DNA of 31,945 nucleotides from a virus, in IMG/VR virus record IMGVR_UViG_3300048590_000042, positions 1 to 31,945 of that record. One strand, 5' to 3'. The notes under the pieces are model-generated. The model saw nothing but the letters and a program-made list of their open reading frames with translations, was not told the DNA's origin and ran no database searches. Of the stretch, positions 1 to 31,945 are shown in pieces. Numbering within the stretch: the stretch's first letter is position 1; each line of letters begins with the position of its first letter. A program made the position numbers and the translations under genes.

Positions 1-1094
1 GCACGCCGGGGGCGGGCTGGACGCTCAGGTTCGAGTCTGGTTCCAGATGGATTCGCGGCACGTTCGGGCTGACGGGTTCTGGTAGTGACTTCGAGTGGTC
101 GCTGCCGACGTGGAGCGCGGGGCAGTCTGGGCGCATCTCGACCATCGTCATCAACGCCACGAATGAAGGGCTGGTGACGGGCAGCGGTGCGATCACGCTG
201 GGCGAAGTGACGGTGAGCGGGACGGGGACGGTGGACGATGGGACGGCGGAGGAGCCGCTTTTCTTTGATGACTTCTCGACGGCAGACTTCTCGAACCACA
301 ACGATTACTTCCGGTGGGGCGGCGGCGGAACAATCCCCGATGAGGGGAACACATTTGGTGGAATTATCGACTCAGTAACCGGGCCGACTGGCGCGACGGT
401 TAATGCCATTCGGTTCCAGTACACGCCGTCCCAGCAGTGGCAAGAGGTTCGGTTTCACCTGACGACCTCGGTATCAGAGACGCGGACGGACGGGACTAGC
501 GGCACTGTCTACCCAGTCGTGTGGCTAAGTTATTGGCTGTATGTTCCTGGGAACTACGTTCACGGGTCAACTGGTGACGCGGGACTGAACCAAAAGGGTT
601 TCGCCACGCTCTGGAAAGACGCCTATCTGTCAAATTTTGCGCAGGCCGCGTGGGACTGGATTCCTGCTGGGTCTTCCAACTCACAACTTCGCGCATGGGT
701 CGTAGACAGAAACGGCGGGTATAACTGGCCGGTCCCGTGGGGCGATGACGAGTACGGGAACCCGTGGACGACCAGGGAGTCGAGCCATCAAATATCCGGC
801 AGCACAAGCGAAGCCTACGCATTTCGCCCTATCAGCGATCTTGGGCGGTGGCAGCACATAGCCATCGGATACAAGATGTCAGACAGCGGATCTGAAAACG
901 GTTACGTGAAGATGTATCGAGATGGAGTTCTCGCTGTCGAACGCACCGGCATGGACAACTATTTGGCGTCTCCGATCAACGGCCTTGATCGCGGCTATCT
1001 GCTCGGGTATCACAACGCGGTATATCCAGAGACAACGACGTTTTACATCACTGGAGTGCGATTCGGCCTGACTCTTGAGTCGGTGCTGGAGTAA
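1..1094 (+). CDS. Lectin-like phage surface/fibre protein, 5' partial
   Basis: The reading frame is open from codon position 3 with no stop, so the gene starts upstream of the window; the GTG at 174 is only an internal codon. About 364 residues are visible. Near residues 58-75 there is one copy of the motif TGSGAITLGEVTVSGTG, the same beta repeat that builds the large protein at 4114-6189. From about residue 87 (FFDDFSTADF) to the end it looks like a single concanavalin/LamG-like beta sandwich, with the typical stretch GRWQHIAIGYKM followed by YVKMYRDGVLAVE. Such domains bind or cleave polysaccharide. I infer a virion surface or receptor-binding protein; no catalytic residues are certain. The part after about 260 looks less GC-rich than the repeat part, which suggests a swapped-in receptor-binding domain. 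It ends 2 bases before the next gene. Confidence 0.7.
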   Translation, partial: TPGAGWTLRFESGSRWIRGTFGLTGSGSDFEWSLPTWSAGQSGRISTIVINATNEGLVTGSGAITLGEVTVSGTGTVDDGTAEEPLFFDDFSTADFSNHNDYFRWGGGGTIPDEGNTFGGIIDSVTGPTGATVNAIRFQYTPSQQWQEVRFHLTTSVSETRTDGTSGTVYPVVWLSYWLYVPGNYVHGSTGDAGLNQKGFATLWKDAYLSNFAQAAWDWIPAGSSNSQLRAWVVDRNGGYNWPVPWGDDEYGNPWTTRESSHQISGSTSEAYAFRPISDLGRWQHIAIGYKMSDSGSENGYVKMYRDGVLAVERTGMDNYLASPINGLDRGYLLGYHNAVYPETTTFYITGVRFGLTLESVLE

Positions 1095-1096
1095 CG

Positions 1097-1705
1097 ATGG
1101 CGACATATTCAGACGACTTCAACAGGACGAACGCCGACACGCTTGGCGGGAACTGGACGGTATGGTCCGATAATGACGTAAGAATTCGCAGCAACCAGGC
1201 AAACTCAGACTGGTACTCAAGTGTTTTTTATTCTGCGTCCGCGTCTGCGGACGACCAGTTTTCGCAGATCACACTAAAAACAAACAGTGCTGGCGCTGAA
1301 GTGTTCCTTTTTGTCAGGGCGTCTGGGAACAGCGAAACCGGCAACGCATACCGCCTGCTGCTGAGAAATATAGCAGGCACATGGAGCGCGTTTATTGGGG
1401 CCATGCCAAATGGCGGATATACCGCGCTGACATGGGTTACAGCGAGCGCGACATCCTTTAGTCCGACGCTTGCAGTAGACGACGTGGTTCGCCTTGAAGT
1501 CGAGGGCACGACGCTGCGGTTCAAGAAAAACGGCAGCACGCTGGATACTGTGACAAACGGGACCGTCTCCAGCGGCAGCCCTGGGTTTGGAATGTATGGT
1601 GGAACAGTCGAGGTCAATCTTGATGATTGGTCTGGAGGGGACTTGAGTGGAGCGGCCTCCATCGTCCCGCAAGCAATGGCTAATTATCGAATGAGGGCGG
1701 CATGA
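1097..1705 (+). CDS. Small concanavalin-like (LamG-type) phage protein
   Basis: 202 residues, ATG start with GGAG five bases upstream (1088-1091). The N-terminus SDDFNRTNADTLGGNWTVW and the later LEVEGTTLRFKKNGSTLDT and GMYGGTVEVNLDDWSGG follow the usual pattern of single-domain beta-jelly-roll lectin-like proteins: the DDF opening strand, the 'R.EV.GTTL..K.NG' strand pair and a closing D-W strand. There is no signal peptide or membrane segment. It follows the larger lectin-like protein and overlaps the next gene by ATGA, so it probably belongs to the same adhesion module. A carbohydrate-binding or decoration role is inferred from the fold pattern. Base use is less GC-rich than in the head genes. 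Confidence 0.65.
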   Translation: MATYSDDFNRTNADTLGGNWTVWSDNDVRIRSNQANSDWYSSVFYSASASADDQFSQITLKTNSAGAEVFLFVRASGNSETGNAYRLLLRNIAGTWSAFIGAMPNGGYTALTWVTASATSFSPTLAVDDVVRLEVEGTTLRFKKNGSTLDTVTNGTVSSGSPGFGMYGGTVEVNLDDWSGGDLSGAASIVPQAMANYRMRAA

Positions 1706-2403
1706 GATACCTGAAGCAGAACACCGCGACCCGCGTGACGGTCGGCCCGTTTCTCGACGTGGCGGATGCGAAGACGCCAGAGTTGGCGCTTACGGTCACG
1801 GGTTGTCTCGTCACGTTCGTGGTGGACGATGGTGGCGTTCCGACGCTCGTCATCGATGCAGCCCCGACCGCATCTGGCGGCAACAACGACATGGTGCATA
1901 TCACCAGCGATGCTGCCGGGTATTACGACCTAGAACTGACCGCCGCGCAGACCAATTACGTCGGACGGGCGGTGCTGTGCATCAACGATGATGACGTTCA
2001 CCTGCCGGTGTTCCACGAGTTTATGATCCTGCCTGCGAACGTCTATGATTCGTGGATGGGCACGGACACGCTCGACGTGAACGTGACCTCTATGGCCGCG
2101 AACGTCCTGACCGCATCTGCCATCAACGCCGACGCCCTGACCGCCGCGAAGGTGGCCGACGACGTGGGCGAGCAGTTCGCGGATCAGCTCTTGAACCGCA
2201 ACCTCGCCACGGGCACCGACTCCGGCTCGGCCACGGTCCGCACCGTGCGTCAGGCGCTGCGGTTCCTGCGCAACAAGTGGAGCATCAGCGGCACCACGCT
2301 CACGGTCACGAAGGAAGACGACAGCACGGCAAGCTGGACTTCCGAACTCACCACGAGCGGCGCGGCGGATCCGGTCACGGGCAGTGACCCTGCTTCTGCA
2401 TGA
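1702..2403 (+). CDS. Phage structural protein, beta-rich N-terminus
   Basis: 233 residues; ATG overlaps the preceding stop (ATGA). The N-terminal 120 residues (VTVGPFLDVADAKTPELALTV, then DAAGYYDLELTAAQT and PVFHEFMILPANVYDSW) resemble small beta-sandwich proteins common beside phage tail fibre genes and loosely like baseplate BppU-type N-terminal domains. The middle (residues about 145-200) is helical and Ala-rich, the C-terminus short and polar (SISGTTLTVTKEDDSTASW). I do not recognise an enzymatic motif. Given the neighbours, a virion-associated role in the fibre module is inferred. It overlaps the next gene by ATGA. Confidence 0.6.
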   Translation: MRYLKQNTATRVTVGPFLDVADAKTPELALTVTGCLVTFVVDDGGVPTLVIDAAPTASGGNNDMVHITSDAAGYYDLELTAAQTNYVGRAVLCINDDDVHLPVFHEFMILPANVYDSWMGTDTLDVNVTSMAANVLTASAINADALTAAKVADDVGEQFADQLLNRNLATGTDSGSATVRTVRQALRFLRNKWSISGTTLTVTKEDDSTASWTSELTTSGAADPVTGSDPASA

Positions 2404-4113: not shown

Positions 4114-6189
4114 GTGAGCTACTTCAATAACCTGCTGCTCCTGACCCCGCAGGGGGCAGTCACGGGCACGGGCGAGATCACCCTCGCTCCGGTTGAAGTC
4201 AGCGGCAGCGGGACCGTCACGGGCGCACCGGCTGCGGGTGGTCCCGTATCGCTGCTCGCGTTCTGGATGGGCGGCGCTGGCGGCGCTGCTGCTGCGGGTT
4301 CGATCACCGGCACAGGCGCGGTCACTCTCGGGGCCGTCACCGTTGCTGGTACGGCAGAGCGGTCTGTCACGGGCACGGGCGCAATCGCGCTCGGACCTGT
4401 CACGGTTGCCGGGACGGCTGAACGCAGCGTCACTGGCAGCGGCGCGATTACATTTGGCCAGATCACGATATCGGGCACCGCAGAACGGTCGATCACGGGA
4501 TCGGGGGCGCTGACCCTCGGCGCGATCACGGTAGACGGTACTGGAACCGCCGCCACTGCGACACAGGGCGGATTCGTGTCCATGTTCGCCCCGTGGTTGG
4601 GCGGTGCTGGCGCGATCCTTGACACCGAACACGACGGCACCGGGGCGATTACGCTCGGCGCCATTCAAGTCTCAGGGACTGGCGAACGGTCGGTCACTGG
4701 AACGGGATCGATCACCCTTGCCGCGATCACCGTAGACGGTACTGGCGAGCGGTCGGTTACAGGATCCGGCGCGCTCACGCTGGCCGCGATTGAAGTCGCA
4801 GGCACAGCGGAACGCAGTGTCACCGGAAGCGGGGCCATCACCCTCGCCGCGCTTGATGTTGACGGCAGCGGGTCGGTCGTCGGAAACGTCGCGGGCACGG
4901 GCGAGATCACGCTCGGTGCAATAGCGGTTGCGGGCGCGGCCGAAAGGGTCATCCCAGGCACCGGGGCAATCACCCTCGCGGCCTTGACGGTTGCTGGAAC
5001 TGCCGAACGATCGGTCACCGGCAATGGCGCGATCACGCTCGGACCGATTGCCGTATCTGGCGCCGGAACGATCGGTCGCAGCGGCTCTGGCGCGATCACG
5101 CTTGGCGCGCTGGAGGTCTCTGGCTCTGGCACGATCGAGGGCAATGTCGGCGGCACTGGTGCGCTGACCCTCGGCGCCATTGCAGTCAGCGGCACGGGCG
5201 AGCGGGTCATCCCGGGAACGGGATCGATCACCCTCGGCGCCCTGACCGTCGATGGATTAGGCGAGATCTCGCATACCGGCACCGGGGCCATAACCCTCGG
5301 TCCGGTCACGGTCGCGGGGACGGCGGAACGTAGCGTCACTGGCTCTGGAGCCCTGACGCTCGGTGCGCTGGAAGTCGACGGAACGGGAACGGTCAGCGGC
5401 TCAGGCGGTGGCTTCAAGTCACTGCTGGGCTTCTGGCTCGGCGGCGCTGGCGGTGGCGTTGGCGTTGCCGGAACGGGTGAGATCACCCTCGGCACGATTA
5501 CCGTATCAGGGACGGCAGAACGCTCCGTCACTGGTTCGGGCGCGATTACCTTCGGCCCGATTGAGATTGACGGCACTGGCACCGTCAGCAGCGGCGGCGG
5601 ATTCGTTTCGCTGCTCGGCTTCTGGCTGGGCGGTATCGGTGCGACTGCTTACACGCCGGGAGAGGTCACCGGCTCTGGTGCCCTGACCCTCGGCGCCATG
5701 ACCGTTGCCGGAACCGGCACGGTCGGCGGCGAGATCGGCGGCGGCGGCGACATCGGTGAGGAAATCACCGGCACAGGGTCAATCACCCTTGCCGCCCTGA
5801 CCGTATCCGGCACGGCCGAACGGTCGGTGGTCGGGTCAGGGGCGATCACCCTGGCCGCGCTCGAGCTGGCCGGCACGGGCGACACGGTTGCTGGTCCAAT
5901 CGGCACGGGAGCTATTACGCTCGGCGGCCTCACCGTTTCCGGTGCAGGAACGATCGGGCGTGTCGCGTCCGGGGACATCGTTCTCGGGGCGATTCAGGTC
6001 AGCGGCACAGCGCCCCCAGCCCTGCGCCCGTATGCCGTGGTGGCGGTGCAGCAAGAGTCTCGCATCGTTTACCTCGACATCGAGGACAGATTGGCTCGAG
6101 CCGATCAGGCATCAAGGGCCGTGATCGACCAAAGAGAGCCGCGAACCATAACCCCGCGGGGCGGTTCGCGGCATATACACGTGAACTGA
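4114..6189 (+). CDS. Large tandem-beta-repeat phage surface protein with FWLGG inserts
   Basis: 691 residues, GTG start preceded by AGGGGGCGAG. Nearly all of it consists of about 24 tandem units of about 21 residues on the pattern (T/S/P)G(T/S)GxITLGxIxVxGTxERSV, which should form a beta-solenoid or regular beta stack. Four times the array is broken by a Gly-rich hydrophobic insert of the form GG(F/P)xSLLxFWLGGxG (near residues 45, 150, 430 and 495), which could be a membrane-active or packing segment. The last 60 residues differ and are charged, with regularly spaced arginines (ESR, EDR, ASR, REPR). No catalytic motif. Related units occur in the partial gene at the left edge. A fibre or capsid-surface role is inferred; the function is undetermined. 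Confidence 0.7.
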   Translation: MSYFNNLLLLTPQGAVTGTGEITLAPVEVSGSGTVTGAPAAGGPVSLLAFWMGGAGGAAAAGSITGTGAVTLGAVTVAGTAERSVTGTGAIALGPVTVAGTAERSVTGSGAITFGQITISGTAERSITGSGALTLGAITVDGTGTAATATQGGFVSMFAPWLGGAGAILDTEHDGTGAITLGAIQVSGTGERSVTGTGSITLAAITVDGTGERSVTGSGALTLAAIEVAGTAERSVTGSGAITLAALDVDGSGSVVGNVAGTGEITLGAIAVAGAAERVIPGTGAITLAALTVAGTAERSVTGNGAITLGPIAVSGAGTIGRSGSGAITLGALEVSGSGTIEGNVGGTGALTLGAIAVSGTGERVIPGTGSITLGALTVDGLGEISHTGTGAITLGPVTVAGTAERSVTGSGALTLGALEVDGTGTVSGSGGGFKSLLGFWLGGAGGGVGVAGTGEITLGTITVSGTAERSVTGSGAITFGPIEIDGTGTVSSGGGFVSLLGFWLGGIGATAYTPGEVTGSGALTLGAMTVAGTGTVGGEIGGGGDIGEEITGTGSITLAALTVSGTAERSVVGSGAITLAALELAGTGDTVAGPIGTGAITLGGLTVSGAGTIGRVASGDIVLGAIQVSGTAPPALRPYAVVAVQQESRIVYLDIEDRLARADQASRAVIDQREPRTITPRGGSRHIHVN
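4156..6010 (+). repeat. Array of about 24 degenerate ~63-bp coding repeats
   Basis: The DNA encoding the beta repeats of the 691-residue protein shows a period of about 63 bases, each unit beginning with a variant of ggcacgggcgcgatcacgctcgg and ending with acggcagaacggtcggtcac. Units are clearly related but diverged, mostly at third positions, so the array is old rather than a recent expansion. Four units carry longer spacers for the hydrophobic FWLGG inserts. Such arrays can change copy number by recombination, but nothing here shows that this happens. Confidence 0.8.
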
Positions 6190-6198
6190 GGTTACAGC

Positions 6199-6678
6199 GT
6201 GATCCAGACGTTCGAGAAAGACCCAGCCGAAGCACTGGATTACTCGGTCGAGTTCATCGCGCACGCCGCCCGGTATCGTGAGCCAAATACCGACTACAAC
6301 ACCTCGACGAAGGTACAGCCGAAGCGCGCCACGGGCCTCGAATACAACGCCAGCACAGGCGGACGCACGGGTACAGACGAGCCCCGGTGGCCGACGACAG
6401 TCGCTCAGACCGTCACCGATGGATCGGTCATCTGGACAGCCGCTGCCATCAGCACGGCTTCACTGACCCGCACCCTGTCGAGCGCCACATGGACAGCGGA
6501 CACCGGACTGACCGTCTCAGGACAAGCCCAGCAGGGCACGAAGTCCACGGCCACGATCTCAGGTGGAACGCTGGGGCAAACTTACCTGGTGCGGGTGGAT
6601 GGCACGTTCTCGGATAGCACGGTCAGGACGGCGACGTTCTGGGTGAAGATCGTCAGACCGAGGACGGTCAGCGCATGA
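6199..6678 (+). CDS. Fibre-tail adaptor-like protein (Gp77-like) with inserted WPTT module
   Basis: 159 residues, GTG start with GAGG seven bases upstream. The N-terminal MIQTFEKDPAEALDYSVEF and the C-terminal half (TWTADTGLTVSG, then ATISGGTLGQTYLVRVDGTF and FWVKIVRP) resemble the small adaptor proteins that join fibres to the tail, typically 'W.AD.GLTVS...T.t..sGGt.G..Y.v'. Between them lies the module GRTGTDEPRWPTT followed by QTVTDGSVIWTA, a short motif seen in many phage tail and surface proteins. The location right after the repeat protein supports a role in attaching surface structures. The assignment is from pattern memory, not from a search. Confidence 0.55.
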   Translation: MIQTFEKDPAEALDYSVEFIAHAARYREPNTDYNTSTKVQPKRATGLEYNASTGGRTGTDEPRWPTTVAQTVTDGSVIWTAAAISTASLTRTLSSATWTADTGLTVSGQAQQGTKSTATISGGTLGQTYLVRVDGTFSDSTVRTATFWVKIVRPRTVSA

Positions 6679-7310
6679 TCTCTGTTTCGGTCGAAGCGGA
6701 CATCAGCAAGGCCGTGCAGATGCTGCGCCTGCTCCCGCAAGAGGCCAACCGGGCGGCCTATCGAGCGATCAACAAGATTGCCGACGAGGTCAAGCGGGAC
6801 AGCGCGAAGGAGATATCTGACCACACGGGCCTGACCCGGGCAGATGTGTATAAGCGCATGTACGTGAAGGGGGCCAGCCCGAGCAGGCTGATCGCCTCGG
6901 TCCATGCCCTGCCTTCGTCAAAGAACGTGGGCTTCTACAAGGGGGCAGCTCCACGCCAGACAAAGCCGGGTGTCGACATCAAGGCATGGGGTGGGCGCAC
7001 CGTGTATGACGGTGCATTCGTAAAGGGTCCACCACGCTTGCGCACCGGGCTGAAGCGCAAAGTATTTCGACGCACAGGTCCAGGCAAGGACGACATCACC
7101 GACAAGGTGTGGGGACCGAGCATCCGCAAATCGTTCGAGCGTCCGTTCGTCAGGGCACGGCAGATGGCAATCATCAAGCGACGCTGGCCTTACCACTTCG
7201 AGCGATATCTGAGAGGCGAGCTGGTCAAGCTGCGTGGAGCGAGCGCACTGAAGGGCATCGCCAACGTGCTGCCGAACCTGACTGGCCCGACGTTCACTAT
7301 TGATGCGTGA
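6675..7310 (+). CDS. Minor tail protein Z-like (head-tail junction/tail completion)
   Basis: 211 residues, ATG overlapping the preceding stop (ATGA). The N-terminus ADISKAVQMLRLLPQEANRAAYRAINKIADEVKRDSAKEI and the segment TGLTRADVYKRMYVKGAS match the pattern of the lambda gpZ / prophage minor tail protein Z family: a helical N-terminus with 'RA..RAINK.A', followed by 'L....V..R'. The C-terminal FVRARQMAIIKRRWPYHFERYLRGEL is also typical. Members of the family act in completing the tail where it joins the head. Such genes normally lie among the head-tail connector genes, so a position upstream of the terminase is odd. It is the last gene before the HNH cassette. Confidence 0.65.
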   Translation: MISVSVEADISKAVQMLRLLPQEANRAAYRAINKIADEVKRDSAKEISDHTGLTRADVYKRMYVKGASPSRLIASVHALPSSKNVGFYKGAAPRQTKPGVDIKAWGGRTVYDGAFVKGPPRLRTGLKRKVFRRTGPGKDDITDKVWGPSIRKSFERPFVRARQMAIIKRRWPYHFERYLRGELVKLRGASALKGIANVLPNLTGPTFTIDA

Positions 7311-7321
7311 TTTGCTATAAA
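7293..7321 (+). promoter_or_regulatory. Candidate sigma70-type promoter for the HNH gene
   Basis: TTCACT (7293-7298) and TATAAA (7316-7321) are separated by exactly 17 bases, matching the -35/-10 consensus at 4/6 and 5/6 positions. The -35 lies in the end of the preceding gene. A start near 7328 would put a strong hairpin at the very 5' end of the transcript. Seen by eye; no transcription evidence. Confidence 0.45.
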
Positions 7322-7324
7322 GGC

Positions 7325-7359
7325 GGGGCCGGACGGTGCGTCAACACCAGTCCGACCCC
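7325..7359 (+). other. Strong hairpin in the leader of the HNH gene
   Basis: The arms GGGGCCGGAC (7325-7334) and GTCCGACCCC (7350-7359) pair with a single C-A mismatch, and inside them GGTG (7335-7338) pairs with CACC (7345-7348), closing a CGTCAA loop with one bulged A. There is no T-tract, so a classical intrinsic terminator is unlikely. It sits between the candidate promoter and the ribosome binding site GGAGGG (7380-7385), which it does not cover. It could stabilise the mRNA, block read-through partially, or be part of a homing site. Confidence 0.7.
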
Positions 7360-7388
7360 TAACCAACACACCCTATTGCGGAGGGCAT

Positions 7389-8156
7389 GTGGCTGCGAAG
7401 CAATGTAGCAAATGCGGCGAGACTAAGCCGCTTTCTGCTTTTAGGCGTCGAGATAGGACTTGTGGCGGATGCCGGATGAAGGCGTACCGCGAAAGACGCA
7501 ATCTATCTGGGAACCCGCTTCCGAATTCGCCGTGGACGGACGCTAGACGAGAGCGCCGGAAACTGACTCTGCAGCGTGTTCGCGCGGACAAGAAGTCGGC
7601 AGGACTAAAAGCTAGACCGTGGGATGATCGGTGGCGAGAGTACGTTTACATTGCAGCAAAGAGGGGCAAAGAATACTGGCCCCTTGGTTGCAGGTTGCCA
7701 AAGGTTAAGCCCGTCAAACGTGTAGTGCAGCGTGGTCCGTGGAGCGCACGGGGGCTGAGTGATGCGGAACAGTATCGCATCAGGTATAGGTCAGACCCTG
7801 AGTTCAGGGAGCGCGAGTGTCTAAGGCAGCAGATGAAGCGCCATGCGAATCCGCGTTATGCCTTGCAGTGGGCCAAGCATGGGGCGCGATGGTTTCGAGC
7901 GAATGAATCGGATGATGGATCGATCACGTTCGATCATCTGCGATGGCTGCGACAGGACAAGACGTGCGCCTATTGCGGGTGCACGCTGACCAGCAAGACA
8001 AGGGAGTTCGACCACGTGCAGCCACTCGCTCAGGGTGGAACGCACACGGCAGATAACCTTGTGGTGACGTGCAGGCCATGCAACAGACTCAAGCGAGACA
8101 AGCCGTTTCTTCAGTGGATCGCGATGATCGGCCAACGGCTGAGCGTGGCCGCGTGA
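7389..8156 (+). CDS. HNH endonuclease with N-terminal zinc finger (homing type)
   Basis: 255 residues from GTG at 7389, preceded by GGAGGG; the ATG two bases earlier is in another frame. The N-terminus holds a CxxC...CxxC zinc ribbon (C6, C9, C25, C28; CSKCGETKPLSAF), and the C-terminal 65 residues hold a full HNH nuclease: C193-x-x-C196, D208-H209, N223, C228-x-x-C231, N232. The middle is basic and probably binds DNA. HNH proteins of this type cleave DNA and often spread as free-standing homing endonucleases; others assist the terminase at cos. The less GC-rich base use, its own promoter/hairpin leader, and gaps on both sides favour an inserted selfish cassette, but its place beside the terminase keeps the packaging role open. 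Confidence 0.85.
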   Translation: MAAKQCSKCGETKPLSAFRRRDRTCGGCRMKAYRERRNLSGNPLPNSPWTDARRERRKLTLQRVRADKKSAGLKARPWDDRWREYVYIAAKRGKEYWPLGCRLPKVKPVKRVVQRGPWSARGLSDAEQYRIRYRSDPEFRERECLRQQMKRHANPRYALQWAKHGARWFRANESDDGSITFDHLRWLRQDKTCAYCGCTLTSKTREFDHVQPLAQGGTHTADNLVVTCRPCNRLKRDKPFLQWIAMIGQRLSVAA

Positions 8157-8270
8157 TGCGAATGATTATCAACGGGTCCCACTTGACGCCCTACCGGGGG
8201 TGCACCCGTGGCCCTACTTATTGATTAGACAGGATTTTTCCTAAGCCGCCTGCCTGAATGGGACTTTCGC
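8157..8270 (+). other. Intergenic region before terminase; palindrome, possible cos or control site
   Basis: This 114-base gap is one of two real gaps in the late region. It contains the perfect 10-base palindrome GGGTGCACCC (8198-8207), and the arm ACCCGT (8204-8209) also matches ACGGGT (8172-8177) as an inverted repeat. The last 50 bases are AT-rich before the terminase start. Phages with lambda-type terminases carry cos just upstream of the small subunit gene, so this is where cos would be expected; the sequence does not prove it. Confidence 0.35.
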
Positions 8271-8834
8271 ATGAATCTTAGCGGCCTGACGCAATCGCAA
8301 GCGGCGACGCTGCTGAGTATTTCGCCACGCACGATTCGCGACTGGCACGACGCGCCGCGGAATCCTGACGGCACGTATCCCGGTCCAGCGCTGGTGGCGT
8401 ACTACGTCGAGAAGCGGACGGGCGCCGGGGACTTTGACGACCAGCGCCAGCGCCTAGCCGCCGCGCAGGCCGAGAAAGTCGAACACGAGAACCTGGTGCG
8501 CCGCGGGATGCTGGCGCAGCGGGAAGCCGTGGTGAAATTCTGGACGGAATGTCTCGCGAACATGCGGGCGAAGATCCTCGCGATGGCATCGAAACTAGGC
8601 CCGCAACTGGTGAACATTGGAGACGCAAGCATCATCGCCGCAGCCATCCGGGCCGAGTGTTACGCCGCCCTCGCCGAGCTTGCCGAGTGGGGTGCAGACG
8701 GACGTGAAGACGTGGTGGCAGGAAGCGAGGAAGGTCCTGCTGCCGCCGCCGGTCCTGACGGTAGCGGAGTGGGCCGACCGCGAGCGAAGGCTGTCAACGG
8801 AAAGCAGCGCCGAGCCCGGACAGTGGCGAACTGA
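8271..8834 (+). CDS. terS: Terminase small subunit (Nu1-like)
   Basis: 187 residues, ATG at 8271. The N-terminal 35 residues form a winged-helix/HTH DNA-binding motif (LTQSQAATLLSISPRTIRDWHDAP), followed by a central helical region (DDQRQRLAAAQAEKVEHENL, then MLAQREAVVKFWTECLANMRAKI), as in Nu1-type small subunits of lambda-like phages, which recognise cos and hand DNA to the large subunit. The last 50 residues (from about GADGREDVV) are low-complexity and lie in a DNA stretch that also codes, in another frame, for the terminase large subunit N-terminus, so the C-terminal tail is probably shaped by that overlap or is not conserved. Length is close to lambda Nu1 (181). Confidence 0.85.
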   Translation: MNLSGLTQSQAATLLSISPRTIRDWHDAPRNPDGTYPGPALVAYYVEKRTGAGDFDDQRQRLAAAQAEKVEHENLVRRGMLAQREAVVKFWTECLANMRAKILAMASKLGPQLVNIGDASIIAAAIRAECYAALAELAEWGADGREDVVAGSEEGPAAAAGPDGSGVGRPRAKAVNGKQRRARTVAN

Positions 8835-10545
8835 TCGCGCCCCGTATCAGCGGGGAATCATGGATGCGGTCTCGGACCCGTCCGTGCGGGAAATATGGGT
8901 TCAGAAAAGCGCGCAGACGGGGTGGACCGAGATCCTGTCGAACGTGATCGGGTATCACGTGGATCAGGACCCGTCCCCGATCCTGATGGTGCAGCCGACG
9001 CTCGAGATGGGCGAGGCGTATGCGAAGGACCGGCTGGCGCCGATGATCCGCGACACGCCTGCGCTGCGGGACAAGATCGCGGACCCAAAGGCCCGGGACA
9101 GTGGCAACACGCTGCTGCATAAGTCTTTCACTGGGGGTCGGCTGACGATCGCCGGGGCGAACAGCCCCGCGGGCCTTGCTTCACGCCCGATCAGGATTGT
9201 GCTGTTCGATGAGGTGGACCGCTTCCCGACGAGCGCCGGGACCGAGGGCGACCCGATCTCGCTCGGCATCAAAAGAACCAGGACATTCTGGAATCGCAAG
9301 GTGCTGGCAGGATCCACCCCCACGGTCAAAGGCAGCAGTCGCATCGAGGTCGGGTTCGAGCAGTCGGACCAGCGGTACTACTTCGTGCCGTGCCCGCACT
9401 GCGACGAGTTCCAGCGCCTTGTGTGGGCCAACGTGCGCTGGCCGGACGGGCAGCCCGAGCGGGCCGTGTACGTCTGCCAGCACTGCGGCGTCGAGCTGAC
9501 CGATGCCGACAAGCCGGGGATGCTCGAGCGGGGCGAATGGCGCGGGTCTAAGCCGTTCGACGGCATCGCCGGGTTCCATATCAGCGAGCTTTACTCGCCC
9601 TGGTCGTCATGGTCCGAGATGGCCGTGGGGTTCCTGCGCGCCAAGCGGCTGCCGGAAACCCTGCAGGCGTGGATCAATACCAGTCTCGGGGAGACGTGGG
9701 AGGACAGCGGCGAGAAGCTCGAGGGCGGCAAGCTCGCCGAGCGGATCGAGTCCTACGTGGCCGACCACTGTCCCGCCGGGGTGCGGGTCATCACGGTCGG
9801 GACCGACGTGCAGGATGATCGCCTCGAGTGCACCGTCTGGGGCTGGGGCGAGGACGAGGAAGCGTGGCGCCTCGGGCATCACGTGTTGCGCGGCGACCCG
9901 GGCCAGCAGCAGTTGTGGTCCGAGCATGACGAACTGCTGCGGCGCCGGTATCGCACCGACGACGGCCGGCAGCTCGTGGTCGAGGCGTGCTGCGTGGACT
10001 CGGGCGGCCACTTCACGCAACAGGTCTACGCCTACTGCTCGGCGCGCAAGCGGTTCCGGGTGTGGGCGATCAAGGGCGCCAGTGGTGGCGGGAAGCTGAT
10101 CTGGCCGAAGCGCGCGAGCCGCGCCGGCAAGACGCGGGCCGACCTGTTCGTGATCGGGGTCGATACGGCGAAAGACGTGCTGTTCGGGCGGCTGAAAAAG
10201 GTCGCCGAGCCCGGTCCCGGTTACGTGCACTTCGACGCGGACACAGACGCGGCCTATCTCGAACAACTCACGAACGAAGTGGTCGTGAGCAAGATGCATA
10301 TGGGCCGCCGGGTAAGGGTCTGGAAGCTCCGTGCGGCGGGCGCGCGGGTCGAGGCACTGGATTGCATGGTCTACGCATACGCAGCCCTGCAGGGCCGTGG
10401 CGGGGCCGCATTACTGAAGACTCGGCATCAGGTTCCGCAGGAAATCATCCCGCCCGAGCCTGAGCCGAAACCGACACCAGAAGTCAGGATGCCGCAGCGC
10501 GTGAAGCCGATCCGGCGCACGAGCTGGGTCAGCCGATGGAGATGA
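8692..10545 (+). CDS. terL: Terminase large subunit (lambda gpA family)
   Basis: 617 residues from GTG 8692; GTG 8704 is an equally good start, while an upstream ATG at 8617 would add a Pro/Ser-rich tail not typical of the family. The chain matches gpA: PPPVLTVAEWADRERRLS opening, Walker A-like QKSAQTGWTE with K72, Walker B LFDEVD with D173-E174, a four-cysteine zinc site (C234, C237, C262, C265), the nuclease signature GTDVQDDR with D372, VDSGG further on, and a closing EALDCMVYAYAA. It is the ATP-driven motor and cos-cutting nuclease that loads DNA into the prohead through the portal. It overlaps the small subunit gene by about 140 bases. The C-terminus carries a Pro/Glu-rich stretch. Confidence 0.93.
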   Translation: MQTDVKTWWQEARKVLLPPPVLTVAEWADRERRLSTESSAEPGQWRTDRAPYQRGIMDAVSDPSVREIWVQKSAQTGWTEILSNVIGYHVDQDPSPILMVQPTLEMGEAYAKDRLAPMIRDTPALRDKIADPKARDSGNTLLHKSFTGGRLTIAGANSPAGLASRPIRIVLFDEVDRFPTSAGTEGDPISLGIKRTRTFWNRKVLAGSTPTVKGSSRIEVGFEQSDQRYYFVPCPHCDEFQRLVWANVRWPDGQPERAVYVCQHCGVELTDADKPGMLERGEWRGSKPFDGIAGFHISELYSPWSSWSEMAVGFLRAKRLPETLQAWINTSLGETWEDSGEKLEGGKLAERIESYVADHCPAGVRVITVGTDVQDDRLECTVWGWGEDEEAWRLGHHVLRGDPGQQQLWSEHDELLRRRYRTDDGRQLVVEACCVDSGGHFTQQVYAYCSARKRFRVWAIKGASGGGKLIWPKRASRAGKTRADLFVIGVDTAKDVLFGRLKKVAEPGPGYVHFDADTDAAYLEQLTNEVVVSKMHMGRRVRVWKLRAAGARVEALDCMVYAYAALQGRGGAALLKTRHQVPQEIIPPEPEPKPTPEVRMPQRVKPIRRTSWVSRWR

Positions 10546-10546
10546 C

Positions 10547-11089
10547 GTGACGACACCGACGCAAGTGCCAGCCGAACTGATCGCGGGCGACACGTGGGAA
10601 TGGACCCGCAATCTGTCCGACTACCCGGCCGCCACATGGTCGGCCGTCTGGTATTTCGAGAAGTCGGATCACAATTTCAGCGTGACGGGCGGCACATCGG
10701 GAGACACGCACACGGCCACGGTCGCCGCGGCGACGTCGGCCGGACACAAGCCGGGAGAATACCGCTGGCGGCTCGTAATGACCGCTTCAGGGGTCCGCAA
10801 AACCGCGGAATCCGGCTATCTGGACGTGCTGCGCGACCCGGCGGCTGTCGGCAACGCCGATCACAGGTCAATCGCGCGCGTCATGCTCGACAACGTCGAG
10901 GCGTATCTGCGCGATCCGACGAATCTGGCCGCGGCGAGCTATTCGCTGGGCGGCCGGTCGCTGTCGAGGTGGTCCCGGTCGGAATTGCTCACCGAACGGT
11001 CGAGATTACAGGCGGAAGTTATGCGCGAGACGCAGGCCGACCGGCTTTCGTCGGGCGTGGGCGTGCCGAGACTACAGGTGAGGTTCTAA
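10547..11089 (+). CDS. Head-tail connector protein with gpW-like C-terminus
   Basis: 180 residues, GTG start one base after the terminase stop, with GGAG at 10538-10541. The N-terminal 100 residues look like a beta domain (AGDTWEWTRNLSDYPAATWSAVWYFE, then KPGEYRWRLVMTASG). The C-terminal 60 residues (AYLRDPTNLAAASYSLGGRSLS followed by RSELLTERSRLQAEVMRE) recall the gpW head-completion protein, which sits under the portal and whose pattern is 'yslgGRsvs...s.L...r..l..E'. The gene lies where lambda has gpW, between terminase and portal. The full-length combination of a beta domain with the gpW-like tail makes this longer than lambda gpW (68). Confidence 0.65.
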   Translation: MTTPTQVPAELIAGDTWEWTRNLSDYPAATWSAVWYFEKSDHNFSVTGGTSGDTHTATVAAATSAGHKPGEYRWRLVMTASGVRKTAESGYLDVLRDPAAVGNADHRSIARVMLDNVEAYLRDPTNLAAASYSLGGRSLSRWSRSELLTERSRLQAEVMRETQADRLSSGVGVPRLQVRF

Positions 11090-11090
11090 C

Positions 11091-12551
11091 GTGACGGAAC
11101 CCTGGTACAAAACCCCGCTTGGGCGCGCGACACTGGCCGCGCAGCCCAAAAAAGTGGCGAAGCGCGCGTTTTCCGGTGCTCAGGCGACGAATCTGACGTG
11201 GTCGTGGGTGACGCAGCCGACGCACCTGAACACCGAGTTGCAAAAAGGGCTGCGCGTGCTGCGGTCGAGATCCCGCGATCTCGAGCAGAACAATGACTAT
11301 GCGCGCAAGTTTCTCGGCATGGTCGAGACGAATGTCGTCGGTCATTCGGGCTTTTCCCTGTTCATTGAGCCGAAAAGGCAGGACGGGACGGTCGATACGT
11401 TCGACGCCGGCCGGTTGGAGTCCGCATTTTGGCGCTGGGCCGAGGATTGCGAGGTCACGGGACTGTCGCTGACCGAAGTTCAGCGGTTGTTCATCCGCAC
11501 GGTGGCTCGCGACGGCGACGTGGCCGTCAGGTTCGTGAATGACGGGCCATTCGGGCTGCGGCTGCAGATGATCGACCCGCAACGCATCGACGACCAATAC
11601 AACGACGAGATCGAAGGCCGCAAGATCCGCATGGGCGTCGAATACGACGCGATGGGTGCGGCGGTTGCCTACTATCTGTCCGATTACGACAGCGCGGACC
11701 CGCGCCAGGGCGAGACATACCGCAAGCGCACGCGGATTCCCGCTGACCAGATGCGGCTGTACTTCCCGAGGATGTCGATCGGGCAGCTCCGCGGCGTGCC
11801 GTTCATGGCTTCCGCGATGCTCCGAATGCAGATGCTCGGCGGTTACGAGGAAGCGGCAGTGGTCGCCGCCCGGGTCGGTGCCGCAAAGCTCGGCGCGATC
11901 AAGACCGAGGACGGCGACATCAGTGGCATGGGCGACGCGCAGGACGGCGCCGGGAATCCGGTGCTGGATGTCGGCGAGCCGGGCAGCTTTTTCAACCTGC
12001 CGCCGGGTTCGTCGCTCGAGTCGTGGGATCCAGACTATCCCCATGCGCAATACGACTCGTTTGTCCGCGCCTGCCTGCGTGGAATCTCGTCAGGGCTCGG
12101 TGTTTCGTACGCCACGCTCGCGAATGACCTCGAAAACGTGAACTACAGCAGCATTCGTGCTGGTGTTCTCGAGGAACGCGAAGTCTGGAAAGCCCTGCAG
12201 GGCTGGATGGTCGATGCGTTCCTGAAACCCATGTACACGCGATGGCTTCGGTTCGCGCTTGTTTCGGGCGAGTTAGACCCGCTGCCGGCGTCGAAATTCG
12301 ACAAATTCAACGCTGCACGGTGGCAGGGGCGACGCTGGGACTGGGTTGACCCGCGCAATGACATGGAAGCGAACATTCTGGCCGTGAAACACGGCCTGAA
12401 AAGCCGTCGCGAGATCGTCGCAGAGCAGGGACGTGACCTCGCGGACGTGTGGAGCGATCTGCAGCAAGAGCAAAAGGATTCGGTGGCGCTCGGCATCAAA
12501 CTGGCCGACCTGGCCGAACCTCAGAAACCAGAACCGGCCCCGGCCGCGTAG
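11091..12551 (+). CDS. Portal protein (lambda family)
   Basis: 486 residues, GTG start with GAGG seven bases upstream. The chain follows the lambda gpB portal family: the N-terminal RSRDLEQNNDYARKFLGMVETNVVG, the central HLIDPQRIDDQYNDE-like segment (QMIDPQRIDDQYND), MGVEYDAMGAAVAYYL, and the clamp/stem region LDVGEPGSFFNLPPGSSLESWDPD, then SYATLANDLENVNYSSIRAGVLEER. It forms the dodecameric ring at one prohead vertex through which the terminase drives DNA. Length is a little under lambda gpB (533). The gene order terminase-connector-portal is the standard one. Confidence 0.93.
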   Translation: MTEPWYKTPLGRATLAAQPKKVAKRAFSGAQATNLTWSWVTQPTHLNTELQKGLRVLRSRSRDLEQNNDYARKFLGMVETNVVGHSGFSLFIEPKRQDGTVDTFDAGRLESAFWRWAEDCEVTGLSLTEVQRLFIRTVARDGDVAVRFVNDGPFGLRLQMIDPQRIDDQYNDEIEGRKIRMGVEYDAMGAAVAYYLSDYDSADPRQGETYRKRTRIPADQMRLYFPRMSIGQLRGVPFMASAMLRMQMLGGYEEAAVVAARVGAAKLGAIKTEDGDISGMGDAQDGAGNPVLDVGEPGSFFNLPPGSSLESWDPDYPHAQYDSFVRACLRGISSGLGVSYATLANDLENVNYSSIRAGVLEEREVWKALQGWMVDAFLKPMYTRWLRFALVSGELDPLPASKFDKFNAARWQGRRWDWVDPRNDMEANILAVKHGLKSRREIVAEQGRDLADVWSDLQQEQKDSVALGIKLADLAEPQKPEPAPAA

Positions 12552-12559
12552 GAGATCAC

Positions 12560-14437
12560 ATGGCGAGCAAAGAACGCCCCAAAAAGATGGGGCTGCAGTG
12601 GCGTTTTGCCGAAGTAAAGCGCGACGCCATCGATACCGAGGCACGGACGATGGCCGTCGCCTTCTCATCCGAGCACCCCGTCGAGCGATGGTGGGGTGTC
12701 GAAGTGTTGGATCACTCACCGCAGTCCGTGCGTCTTGGTCGGATGCAGAACGGCGGTGCAGTGCTTCTCGACCACGATCCACGGTCACACGTGGGCGTCG
12801 TGGAGGACGTTCAGATCGACGCCGACCGCATGGGGCGGGCAGTCCTGCGATTTGGAAAATCGCAGCGGGCGGAGGAGGTCTGGCAAGACGTGCTTGACGG
12901 CATTCGACGTCACGTTTCCGTGGGCTACGCGATCCACCGATCGAAGCTCGAGGAGCAGGGCAGCGATTCACCGGACAAGTACCGGGTCACGGACTGGGAG
13001 CCTTACGAGATCAGTCTCGTCGCTGTCCCGGCCGACCCGAATGTTGGAGTCGGGCGCGCGGAATCCCGCGAGTTCGACCTTGAGATTGAGATTCCCGAAC
13101 AAATCACAGAGGAAAGAGCAATGACGACCGAAGTTCAGACGCCCGCCCCGTCCGTGGACGTGAAGGCGGTTGAGAATGAGGCCCGCGAGGCCGAGCGCGC
13201 ACGCGTGCGCGAGATCCTGGCGGCCGGCGCGCTGCACAATCGCAGCGAGATGGCCCAGAAGGCGGTTTCCGAGGGCGCGAGCCTGTCGGACTTCCGCGAG
13301 ACGCTGCTGGCCGAGATCGCGAAGGCGCAGCCGGCCAAGACGGACCCGGGCATCGGCCTGAGCGACAGCGAGGCGCGGCAGTTCAGCTATCTGCGGGCGA
13401 TTCGCTCGCTGATGAACCCGAACGACCGCAAGGTGCAGGAGGAAGCTGGGTTCGAGCGCGAGGTTTCGCGTGCGGCGGCGCAGAAGTCGGGCAAGCCCGA
13501 GCGTGGCATCGTGATTCCGGTGGACGTGCTGTCGAAGCGCGACCTCATCACCGGCACCGCGACCAGCACCGCGAAGGGCGGTAACCTGATCCAGACGGAC
13601 GTGCTCGGCGCATCGTTCATCGATGTGCTGCGGAACAGCATGGTGCTGCCCGCGGTCGGCGCGCGGTTTATGACGGGCCTGCAGGGCAACGTCGCGATCC
13701 CGAAGCGCACGACGAGTGTCACGGCCTACTGGCCCGGCGAGAACACGGCCCCGACCGAGGGCGCGAACGTGTTTGGCCAGGTCACGATGAGCCCCAAGAC
13801 GCTCGCCGCGTACATCGACATCGGCCGCAGGCTCGCTCTGCAGTCGTCCGTCGATGTCGAGGCGCTGGTGCGTGACGACCTCGCGCAGACGCTCGCCATC
13901 GCGATCGACGAAGCGGCGCTCGGTGCCGCGAAGACGAATGGCCCCACGGGCCTGCGTGGCACGTCGGGCATCGGTTCGGTGGCGATCGGCACGAACGGTG
14001 GTGCGCCGACGTGGGCGAGCATCGTCAATCTCGTCAAGGAAGTCGAAGTCGACAACGCCCTGACGGGCTCGGCGGCGTTCGTGACGAACCCGAAGGTCAA
14101 GGCGAAGCTGTCGCAGACGCCGAAGCAGGCGTCTGGCGTGGAAGGCAACTTCCTGCTCGGCCCGCCGTGGAATGACCTCTACGGGTTCCCGTTCGTCGTG
14201 TCGAACCAGATTCCCTCGACTCTGACGAAGGGCACCTCGACGAGCGTCTGCTCGGCGATGTTCTTCGGCGTGTGGAGCAATCTGGTGGTCGGCCAGTGGG
14301 GCGGCATCGAACTGATGGTCGATCCGTACTCGCTGTCCACGACTGGCGCGACCCGCATCGTGGCGCTGGCGGAGTTGGACGTTTGCGTCCGTCTGCCGGA
14401 GCACTTCGCGGCGGTGCTGGACTACACCACGACCTGA
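12560..14437 (+). CDS. Prohead protease (S78) fused to HK97-type major capsid protein
   Basis: 625 residues from ATG 12560, which follows GGAG at 12551-12554; a longer open frame from 12449 lies inside the portal gene and is ignored. Residues 1-185 are an HK97-type prohead protease: LDHDPRSHVG with H72, HVSVGYAI with S120, and WEPYEISLVAVPADP with E147/E150 give the likely Ser-His-Glu site. Residues 188-300 are a charged helical scaffold (delta-like) domain, and residues 310-625 the capsid fold (GGNLIQTDVLGASFIDVLRN, then GLQGNVAIPKRTTSVTAYW). The protease cuts the scaffold from the capsid during maturation. Such fusions occur in a minority of phages. An internal start at 13121 may give capsid protein alone. 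Confidence 0.9.
   Translation: MASKERPKKMGLQWRFAEVKRDAIDTEARTMAVAFSSEHPVERWWGVEVLDHSPQSVRLGRMQNGGAVLLDHDPRSHVGVVEDVQIDADRMGRAVLRFGKSQRAEEVWQDVLDGIRRHVSVGYAIHRSKLEEQGSDSPDKYRVTDWEPYEISLVAVPADPNVGVGRAESREFDLEIEIPEQITEERAMTTEVQTPAPSVDVKAVENEAREAERARVREILAAGALHNRSEMAQKAVSEGASLSDFRETLLAEIAKAQPAKTDPGIGLSDSEARQFSYLRAIRSLMNPNDRKVQEEAGFEREVSRAAAQKSGKPERGIVIPVDVLSKRDLITGTATSTAKGGNLIQTDVLGASFIDVLRNSMVLPAVGARFMTGLQGNVAIPKRTTSVTAYWPGENTAPTEGANVFGQVTMSPKTLAAYIDIGRRLALQSSVDVEALVRDDLAQTLAIAIDEAALGAAKTNGPTGLRGTSGIGSVAIGTNGGAPTWASIVNLVKEVEVDNALTGSAAFVTNPKVKAKLSQTPKQASGVEGNFLLGPPWNDLYGFPFVVSNQIPSTLTKGTSTSVCSAMFFGVWSNLVVGQWGGIELMVDPYSLSTTGATRIVALAELDVCVRLPEHFAAVLDYTTT
13109..14437 (+). promoter_or_regulatory. 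Internal ribosome binding site and start for separate capsid protein
   Basis: GAGGA at 13109-13113 lies seven bases before an in-frame ATG at 13121, exactly at the border between the protease and scaffold/capsid domains. Initiation here would give a 438-residue capsid precursor (MTTEVQTPAP...). This resembles the lambda C/Nu3 arrangement, where a nested start yields the second product in excess. Interval is drawn to the end of the nested product. Use of the start is inferred. Confidence 0.6.
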
Positions 14438-30927: not shown

Positions 30928-31243
30928 GCATGGCCGCGTCGATGGCGGCGTCCAACTGTTCCAGCGTTTTCCACTGATTGCCGCCCATGTACTGACCCCA
31001 CGCCGGATGAAACACTCCGGGCGGGGCGCGATCGTAAGACGCCCGCAGCCACCGATACCGCTCCGCGTCCTTGCGCAGCGCCGCGTTCTCGGCGGTCAAA
31101 GCGTCGTGCTTATCCCGCCACTCATGCGCCCACCGCTGTTGTGCTTTGCCGTGGGCGTCGGCTTCGGCCAGCCGCGCCTCTGCTTTCATGGCGCGCTCGT
31201 ACCAGTGTGCCGCGTTGCTTGTTCCTTCGTCGTTGATTTTCAT
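30911..31243 (-). CDS. Phage accessory protein with DAERYRWLR motif (Ea22/Ead-like)
   Basis: 110 residues. I chose ATG 31243 because AGGAGG (complement of 31251-31256) lies seven bases upstream; a longer frame to 31267 lacks such a site. The chain has helices (AHWYERAMKAEARLAEADAHGKAQQ, DALTAENAALRKDAERYRWLRASYDRAPPGVFHP) and the motif RKDAERYRWLR, which recurs in accessory proteins of lambdoid and related phages. It ends with LEQLDAAIDAAMQEGER. No known enzymatic domain. The ATG overlaps the stop of the gene upstream on this strand. Confidence 0.65.
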   Translation of the reverse strand: MKINDEGTSNAAHWYERAMKAEARLAEADAHGKAQQRWAHEWRDKHDALTAENAALRKDAERYRWLRASYDRAPPGVFHPAWGQYMGGNQWKTLEQLDAAIDAAMQEGER

Positions 31244-31945
31244 GGTGCAGCCTCCTGTGCGATGCATCCCGGCGCGTGCTGACCAACGCCTTCACAGCAC
31301 ACAAAGGCTTTGACGTTGCCGCCTGCGCCAGTGGGCGATCTAGTGCGCCACAGCATCGCGTCCCGCACTAGCGCGTCGTAATCCTGCTGCGTCAGGCCGG
31401 TAACAGCCGCCGCGCCGTGAAGAAACCTCTGCGCCTCGGCAAATTGTGCATAGGTTGCGTCACGTTCCCCTGATGCGATGCACGCGATGTTCTCAAGCCG
31501 CACTTCCGTGTTGACCGGACGCGGTTCGGCGGCGATGCCGTGAATGCGCGTCAATAACCCCCGAAGCCGCACGTTGTCGGCTTCCGAGTCCTCTAGGTCG
31601 CGCTCTACGTTGTAGAATTTGACGCGCAGGGCGACGATTTCAGCGTTCGGCAAGTCCTCCCGGCACATCGCCTGCGCGTAGGGCCACTCAGCCGGTGCGC
31701 TGCCCTTGTACCGCAGCGTGCCAAGTCCACTACAGGTTAGGCAGATACGATCCGTGCCTGCATACGCGCCTTCCCCTTTGCACGCTTCACACATGACCTC
31801 CTGAACAGCCGGTGCGCCGTGAGGAAACCTCTGCTCCTCGACCGATTGTGCATAGGCTGCGTCACGCACGCGCTTTTGCAGCCCCGGTGGAATGTGAGCC
31901 GCCGCCGACGAGTGCCACAAGTCGCAAACCAACTGCGCAAGGGCG
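31240..31945 (-). CDS. Zinc-finger-like phage accessory protein, 5' partial
   Basis: The frame is open to the right edge of the window (TTG at 31932 is not a convincing start), so the gene is cut at its 5' end; about 235 residues are visible. It carries CEACKGEGAYAG...CLTCSGLGTL, a half DnaJ-type zinc finger (two CxxCxGxG), a central coiled segment (FYNVERDLEDSEADNVRLRGLL), and a Cys/His-rich end (FVCCEGVGQHAPGC). A stretch of about 20 residues, RDAxYAQxxExQRFxHGAxAV, occurs twice, around 31803-31866 and 31401-31464 in DNA. Function unknown; similar proteins occur in phage accessory operons. Confidence 0.6.
   Translation of the reverse strand, partial: ALAQLVCDLWHSSAAAHIPPGLQKRVRDAAYAQSVEEQRFPHGAPAVQEVMCEACKGEGAYAGTDRICLTCSGLGTLRYKGSAPAEWPYAQAMCREDLPNAEIVALRVKFYNVERDLEDSEADNVRLRGLLTRIHGIAAEPRPVNTEVRLENIACIASGERDATYAQFAEAQRFLHGAAAVTGLTQQDYDALVRDAMLWRTRSPTGAGGNVKAFVCCEGVGQHAPGCIAQEAAP
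31401..31464 (-). repeat. 64-bp imperfect coding repeat, copy 1
   Basis: Related without gaps to 31803-31866 in the same gene. Both encode RDAxYAQxxExQRFxHGAxAV, differing at scattered bases, so the duplication is not very recent. Confidence 0.75.
31803..31866 (-). repeat. 64-bp imperfect coding repeat, copy 2
   Basis: Second copy of the 31401-31464 segment, in the N-terminal part of the same protein, about 400 bases away. Confidence 0.75.

Follow-up and report, generated by a model that had tools for sequence, protein, structure and literature searches.

Branched receptor-binding protein systems, described for the K1-5/K1E/SP6, KP32 and KP34 viruses, dock by N-terminal peptides of 7 or 11 residues, with a hydrophobic peptide (MALxxLV) in the KP34 viruses (PMC6872550). 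The locus considered here lies in a 31,945-nucleotide stretch of DNA (hereafter the window; positions 1 to 31,945 of IMGVR_UViG_3300048590_000042, a linear virus record from a tailed phage), in which a repeat protein is interrupted four times by a short FWxGG peptide. As in the branched systems, a short conserved N-terminal peptide is found on variable cargo at related loci, and a conserved candidate partner is encoded elsewhere among the structural genes. Unlike the branched systems, the FWxGG motif occurs in one to seven tandem copies and also internally in repeat arrays, is common to very different phages, and is borne by cargo with no recognised depolymerase; its presumed partner is KEDD, a domain of ∼75 residues that bears no earlier name and is so called here, in place of their T4gp10-like domain. 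To our knowledge, the docking mode of the branched systems is known with a single peptide.

Two further systems invite comparison. In the window and in a related contig (L003), the gene right after the repeat ORF belongs to the family of Gp77, the fibre-tail adaptor of podophage GP4 (PF23148), but the repeat ORF itself has no match to that family and most motif carriers lack a Gp77 gene. Short Gly-rich beta repeats are likewise a feature of beta-solenoid phage fibres, bacterial beta-helical adhesins and S-layer proteins, although the repeat protein has no sequence relation to these, and we know of no counterpart of its inserts among them.

The repeat protein and its neighbourhood

The features of the window are as follows.

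3-1094: 5'-truncated ORF, two domains with one copy of the 21-residue repeat between them
180..239, plus strand: that single repeat copy (GSGAITLGEVTVSGTGTVDD)
1702..2403, plus strand: fibre-like protein, 233 aa, with a KQNTA..VGPFLD N-terminal domain and a C-terminal KEDD domain (2152-2400)
4114..6189, plus strand: repeat protein, 691 aa, GTG start, N-terminus MSYFNNLLLLTPQG, predicted beta array, C-terminal arginine-spaced tail
4165..6006, plus strand: array of ∼24 units of 21 residues (GTGAITLGALTVSGTAERSVT)
4249..4281, plus strand: insert 1, SLLAFWMGGAG, aa 46
4579..4611, plus strand: insert 2, SMFAPWLGGAG, aa 156
5419..5451, plus strand: insert 3, SLLGFWLGGAG, aa 436
5608..5640, plus strand: insert 4, SLLGFWLGGIG, aa 499
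6007..6186, plus strand: C-terminal tail with spaced arginines (QESRIVYLDIEDRLARADQASRAVIDQREPRTITPRGGSRHIHVN), aa ∼632-691
6199..6678, plus strand: Gp77-like fibre-tail adaptor (PF23148, E 1.5e-9)
6675..7310, plus strand: tail completion / Minor_tail_Z protein
8617: TerL, closest deposited relatives Roseobacter phages (52%)
11091-12551: portal
12449-14437: capsid
15961: tail terminator
26945: Dit

A preliminary description of about 24 repeats interrupted by four inserts, with a tail of spaced arginines, agrees with the count made here: 23 units match the 21-residue pattern G[TSN]G[AES][IVL]T[LF][GA]xx[TEA]VxG..., one further unit is divergent (SGDIVLGAIQVSG), and the mean pairwise identity of the units is 55% versus 12% expected from composition. 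The inserts take the form [G]-x-x-S-[LM]-[LF]-[AG]-[FP]-W-[LM]-G-G-x-G, and the DNA form of FW[LM]GG matches three times in the window versus none in 100 shuffles. Fixed spacing of the inserts, also proposed, does not describe this protein (intervals of 110, 280 and 63 aa) and applies instead to the short ORFs in which related phages carry tandem copies. In the AlphaFold2 model (mean pLDDT 50) the repeats are not predicted to be disordered throughout, and show a regular three strands per 21 residues; the suggested beta array is thereby retained in its periodicity, at low confidence, with a pLDDT of 55-71 for most repeats and below 50 for most inserts and the C-terminal tail. Foldseek searches with the low-confidence repeat model returned weak matches, nearly all beta-rich and many beta-helical, all at E > 0.02.

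A full-length homologue (51% identity in the best segment) occupies the same gene position in L003, where a Gp77-like gene also follows in the same position (E 3.9e-7). The inserts are present in this homologue and in that of L032, repeat numbers differing between the window, L003 and L032. The L003 tail has more regularly spaced arginines (GSRTVKARGSRTVRPKGNRTI), with an 8-residue period; tails with regular ESR/GSR-type arginines are also seen at the end of a motif ORF in L132, and in the window, L003 and L132 alike a Gp77-like gene comes next. Insert-free forms of the 21-residue repeat occur in L034-L038 and other phage contigs, sometimes adjoining apparent lectin-like domains, and a single copy links the two domains of ORF 3-1094, so that the repeat as such is a general spacer. 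The N-terminal part of ORF 3-1094 resembles L003 8566-10269; the C-terminal part has no Pfam match and, judged by eye, is possibly lectin- or lyase-like. Joining the window ends in a circle to supply the missing start of this ORF was unsupported.

The repeat protein has no match in Pfam, PHROGs, PDB sequences or cultured phages. Against 50,697 deposited phage records, tblastn found nothing real for the full protein, for either of two motif arrays or for a consensus, and did not find KEDD; the one weak match concerned the KEDD protein, in its N-terminal domain only. Among PDB sequences, profiles of the repeat, the motif and KEDD had no significant match, and the Gp77-like protein gave weak FN3-type matches only. 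The portal ORF is overlapped by the 662-aa ORF at 12449-14437, which matches PHROGs for the major head protein as well as for the head maturation protease and is likely, from these matches, a capsid-protease fusion.

The FWxGG motif in other phages

The peptide is not confined to one odd fibre, as the preliminary description had implied in too narrow a reading: DNA-pattern and profile scans of the 2.9 million contigs of IMG/VR placed it on 35 contigs. The absolute numbers given for the motif and for KEDD are lower bounds, as these scans recover close relatives only, and both families may be wider. A scan of 84,980 genomes gave one match (L022), judged to be chance, and 385 genomes of the class of L022 gave three weak matches and no real motif; the motif peptide strings were not found in the literature.

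Fifty-three distinct instances on very different carriers share a core of 12-14 residues with the consensus G-x-R-S-[LM]-[LF]-A-[FP]-W-[LMI]-G-G-A. The G, W, GG and hydrophobic positions are partly imposed by the search pattern, with GG forced outright; the R (37/53), the A before F/P (46/53) and most of the S (50/53) were unforced or only loosely forced by the DNA pattern. Two architectures recur. Short ORFs bear one to seven tandem copies spaced 20-25 aa apart (median 22, 44 intervals), followed by a Pro/Gly linker and often an acidic-hydrophobic end; elsewhere, one to four copies lie within or ahead of repeat arrays (window, L003, L032). At related loci the first motif usually begins 2-6 residues past the start codon, unlike the internal motifs of the window protein. 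Its presence on dissimilar repeat arrays (L009, L010, L030, L073, L077, L137), including an ORF of L010 that fuses repeats, the motif and a KQxxA..GPFLD domain, identifies the insert, on sequence grounds, as a portable module.

The KEDD companion domain

Most motif ORFs have, upstream of them, a gene whose product ends in KEDD (ADALLNRDM...RFLRNKWSISGTTLTVTKEDD...ADPxTGNDPA). KEDD is encoded on 32 of the 35 motif contigs, and the three contigs without it (L018, L030, L059) each end 35-250 nt upstream of the motif. Adjacency alone does not account for the link, since in L009 and L011 KEDD is present kilobases from the motif; in L057/L075 it lies downstream.

Approached from KEDD, the association is looser. 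Matches to the domain were found on ∼108 of the 2.9 million IMG/VR contigs, and at 44 of the 80 loci kept from these 108 relatives a motif follows within 2.5 kb, most often among the opening residues of the ORF that comes next, by an expression loose enough to count a few borderline forms. The upstream control gave five matches in 303 kb, three of which are a real motif array in L075, leaving ∼2 as chance. With a stricter expression, 33 of 68 non-redundant loci have the motif and a further 10 a related GFRSPLF-type start; at the others the next ORF often opens with another hydrophobic start. The tag undergoes no fewer than 5 changes on the KEDD tree, 15 being the likeliest number, which, together with its absence from about half of the KEDD loci, indicates that KEDD does not need the tag.

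For the KEDD proteins encoded in the window, L053 and L067, Pfam and PHROG searches gave no significant family, and in these searches no T4gp10-like domain; Foldseek gave one weak match to a 'Tail protein' of an uncultured phage (E 0.014). Tandem arrays of a related motif follow KEDD in L102 (from ∼4713, GFRNPLPVPPLSGG) and L120 (4707 on, GLLSPLPFLGAFAG), and are possible sister docking peptides.

Candidate roles for the motif

A partner-binding role, raised in the preliminary description, is favoured by the tight consensus, the dissimilar carriers and the near-obligate presence of KEDD. That the motif almost never occurs without KEDD, and KEDD often without the motif, fits a docking peptide, as do the N-terminal placing, exchangeable carriers and tandem copies; branched receptor-binding proteins offer a precedent by analogy. 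The likeliest of the readings considered, with chances that we regard as evenly balanced, is that the motif is a multi-copy docking peptide attaching variable fibres or cargo to a KEDD-containing structure. In such a mechanism, the 691-aa product would be a virion fibre or spacer protein, its 21-residue repeats stacking into a beta-solenoid-like rod, and the four looped-out motif copies (G-x-R/V-S-L/M-L-A/G-F/P-W-L/M-G-G-A) would dock it onto the virion structure containing the KEDD protein (1702-2403), the receptor being KEDD or something in its complex. Several copies would raise avidity, and the Gp77-like adaptor at 6199 could provide a further contact. In related phages the tag is found, in one to seven copies, on cargo that is interchangeable: short helix-ended linkers, beta arrays of several kinds and an Ig-like domain. 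A wider proposal, that FWxGG and KEDD form a portable plug-and-socket in which tandem plugs on exchangeable cargo give avidity-based attachment to a conserved socket on the virion in many unrelated uncultivated phages, a connector system not described before, is more tentative and falls a little short of even. If true, a 12-residue peptide and a 75-residue domain, both absent from Pfam and PHROGs, would together be a general means of attaching appendages to phages. Fibre-like cargo could then be recognised in phage 'dark matter' that otherwise defies annotation, and the copies in tandem and within arrays would represent a multi-copy version of the docking mode.

Direct docking onto KEDD was not supported by AlphaFold2. 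A chain from L112 comprising KEDD and four motifs, with one stop codon read through purely as a modelling device, gave a well-folded KEDD (about 90) and motifs at pLDDT ∼35-63 that were left free and undocked, in a monomer model incapable of testing a trimer interface. For this reason docking is put at even odds, and a receptor role for KEDD somewhat below that. The undocked chain suits the strongest competing explanation, in which the motif signals assembly with something other than KEDD (the portal, neck or capsid surface, or a shared fibre-folding chaperone) and KEDD is a mere neighbour within one exchange cassette, as does the frequent swapping of tag and cargo on the KEDD tree. Portal, capsid, protease, connector or Gp77 genes lie near the motif/KEDD cassette in several records, and mark it as a putative structural module; yet the identified head-gene neighbours differ in family from record to record with KEDD as the common part, and KEDD is there even when non-adjacent, leaving such a signal an unlikely though serious candidate. 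Gp77 genes are present in just 6 of 48 related records, so that Gp77 was dropped as a universal third member. Portal, capsid and connector neighbours would suit an appendage on the head, neck or tail; in the phage of the window, the Gp77 neighbour argues for the tail.

A membrane-active role for the inserts (insertion or fusion-like, for genome entry or surface anchoring) would suit peptides that are hydrophobic, Gly-rich, tryptophan-bearing and present in several copies, and membrane-like inserts had been suggested at the outset. The idea loses most of its force here, since the inserts are too short for a membrane span, their best 19-residue Kyte-Doolittle means of 1.07-1.27 fall below the usual transmembrane cut-off (∼1.6) and are no higher than those of the repeats, and bulk hydrophobicity explains neither the strictness of the S, A, W and GG positions nor the link to KEDD; we consider it improbable. 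Less probable again is protease cleavage at the GG-A step, with the tandem ORFs encoding precursors from which peptides would be released: all collected instances have GG, though forced by the search pattern, and an S49 peptidase gene follows in L021, but this is the sole record with that neighbour, cuts at the inserts would break the window fibre, and there are no conserved linker ends. Neutral low-complexity shuffling, by which recombination would spread repeats and inserts without function, is disfavoured to a similarly slight probability despite the differing repeat numbers, because the KEDD association holds, one motif sits on dissimilar repeat families, and the inserts are not fresh DNA copies, inserts 3 and 4 differing at five synonymous and one non-synonymous codons out of 11 with the peptide kept.

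Two side observations were made. An imperfect peptide repeat (AYAQSVEEQRFPHGAPAV / TYAQFAEAQRFLHGAAAV) is encoded on the minus strand at 31240-31932, near the record end. In L055, a 1712-aa ORF (6300-11435) immediately follows the motif ORF; a match to ART-PolyVal (ADP-ribosyltransferase; E 2.8e-11) covers the first 500 residues of its product.
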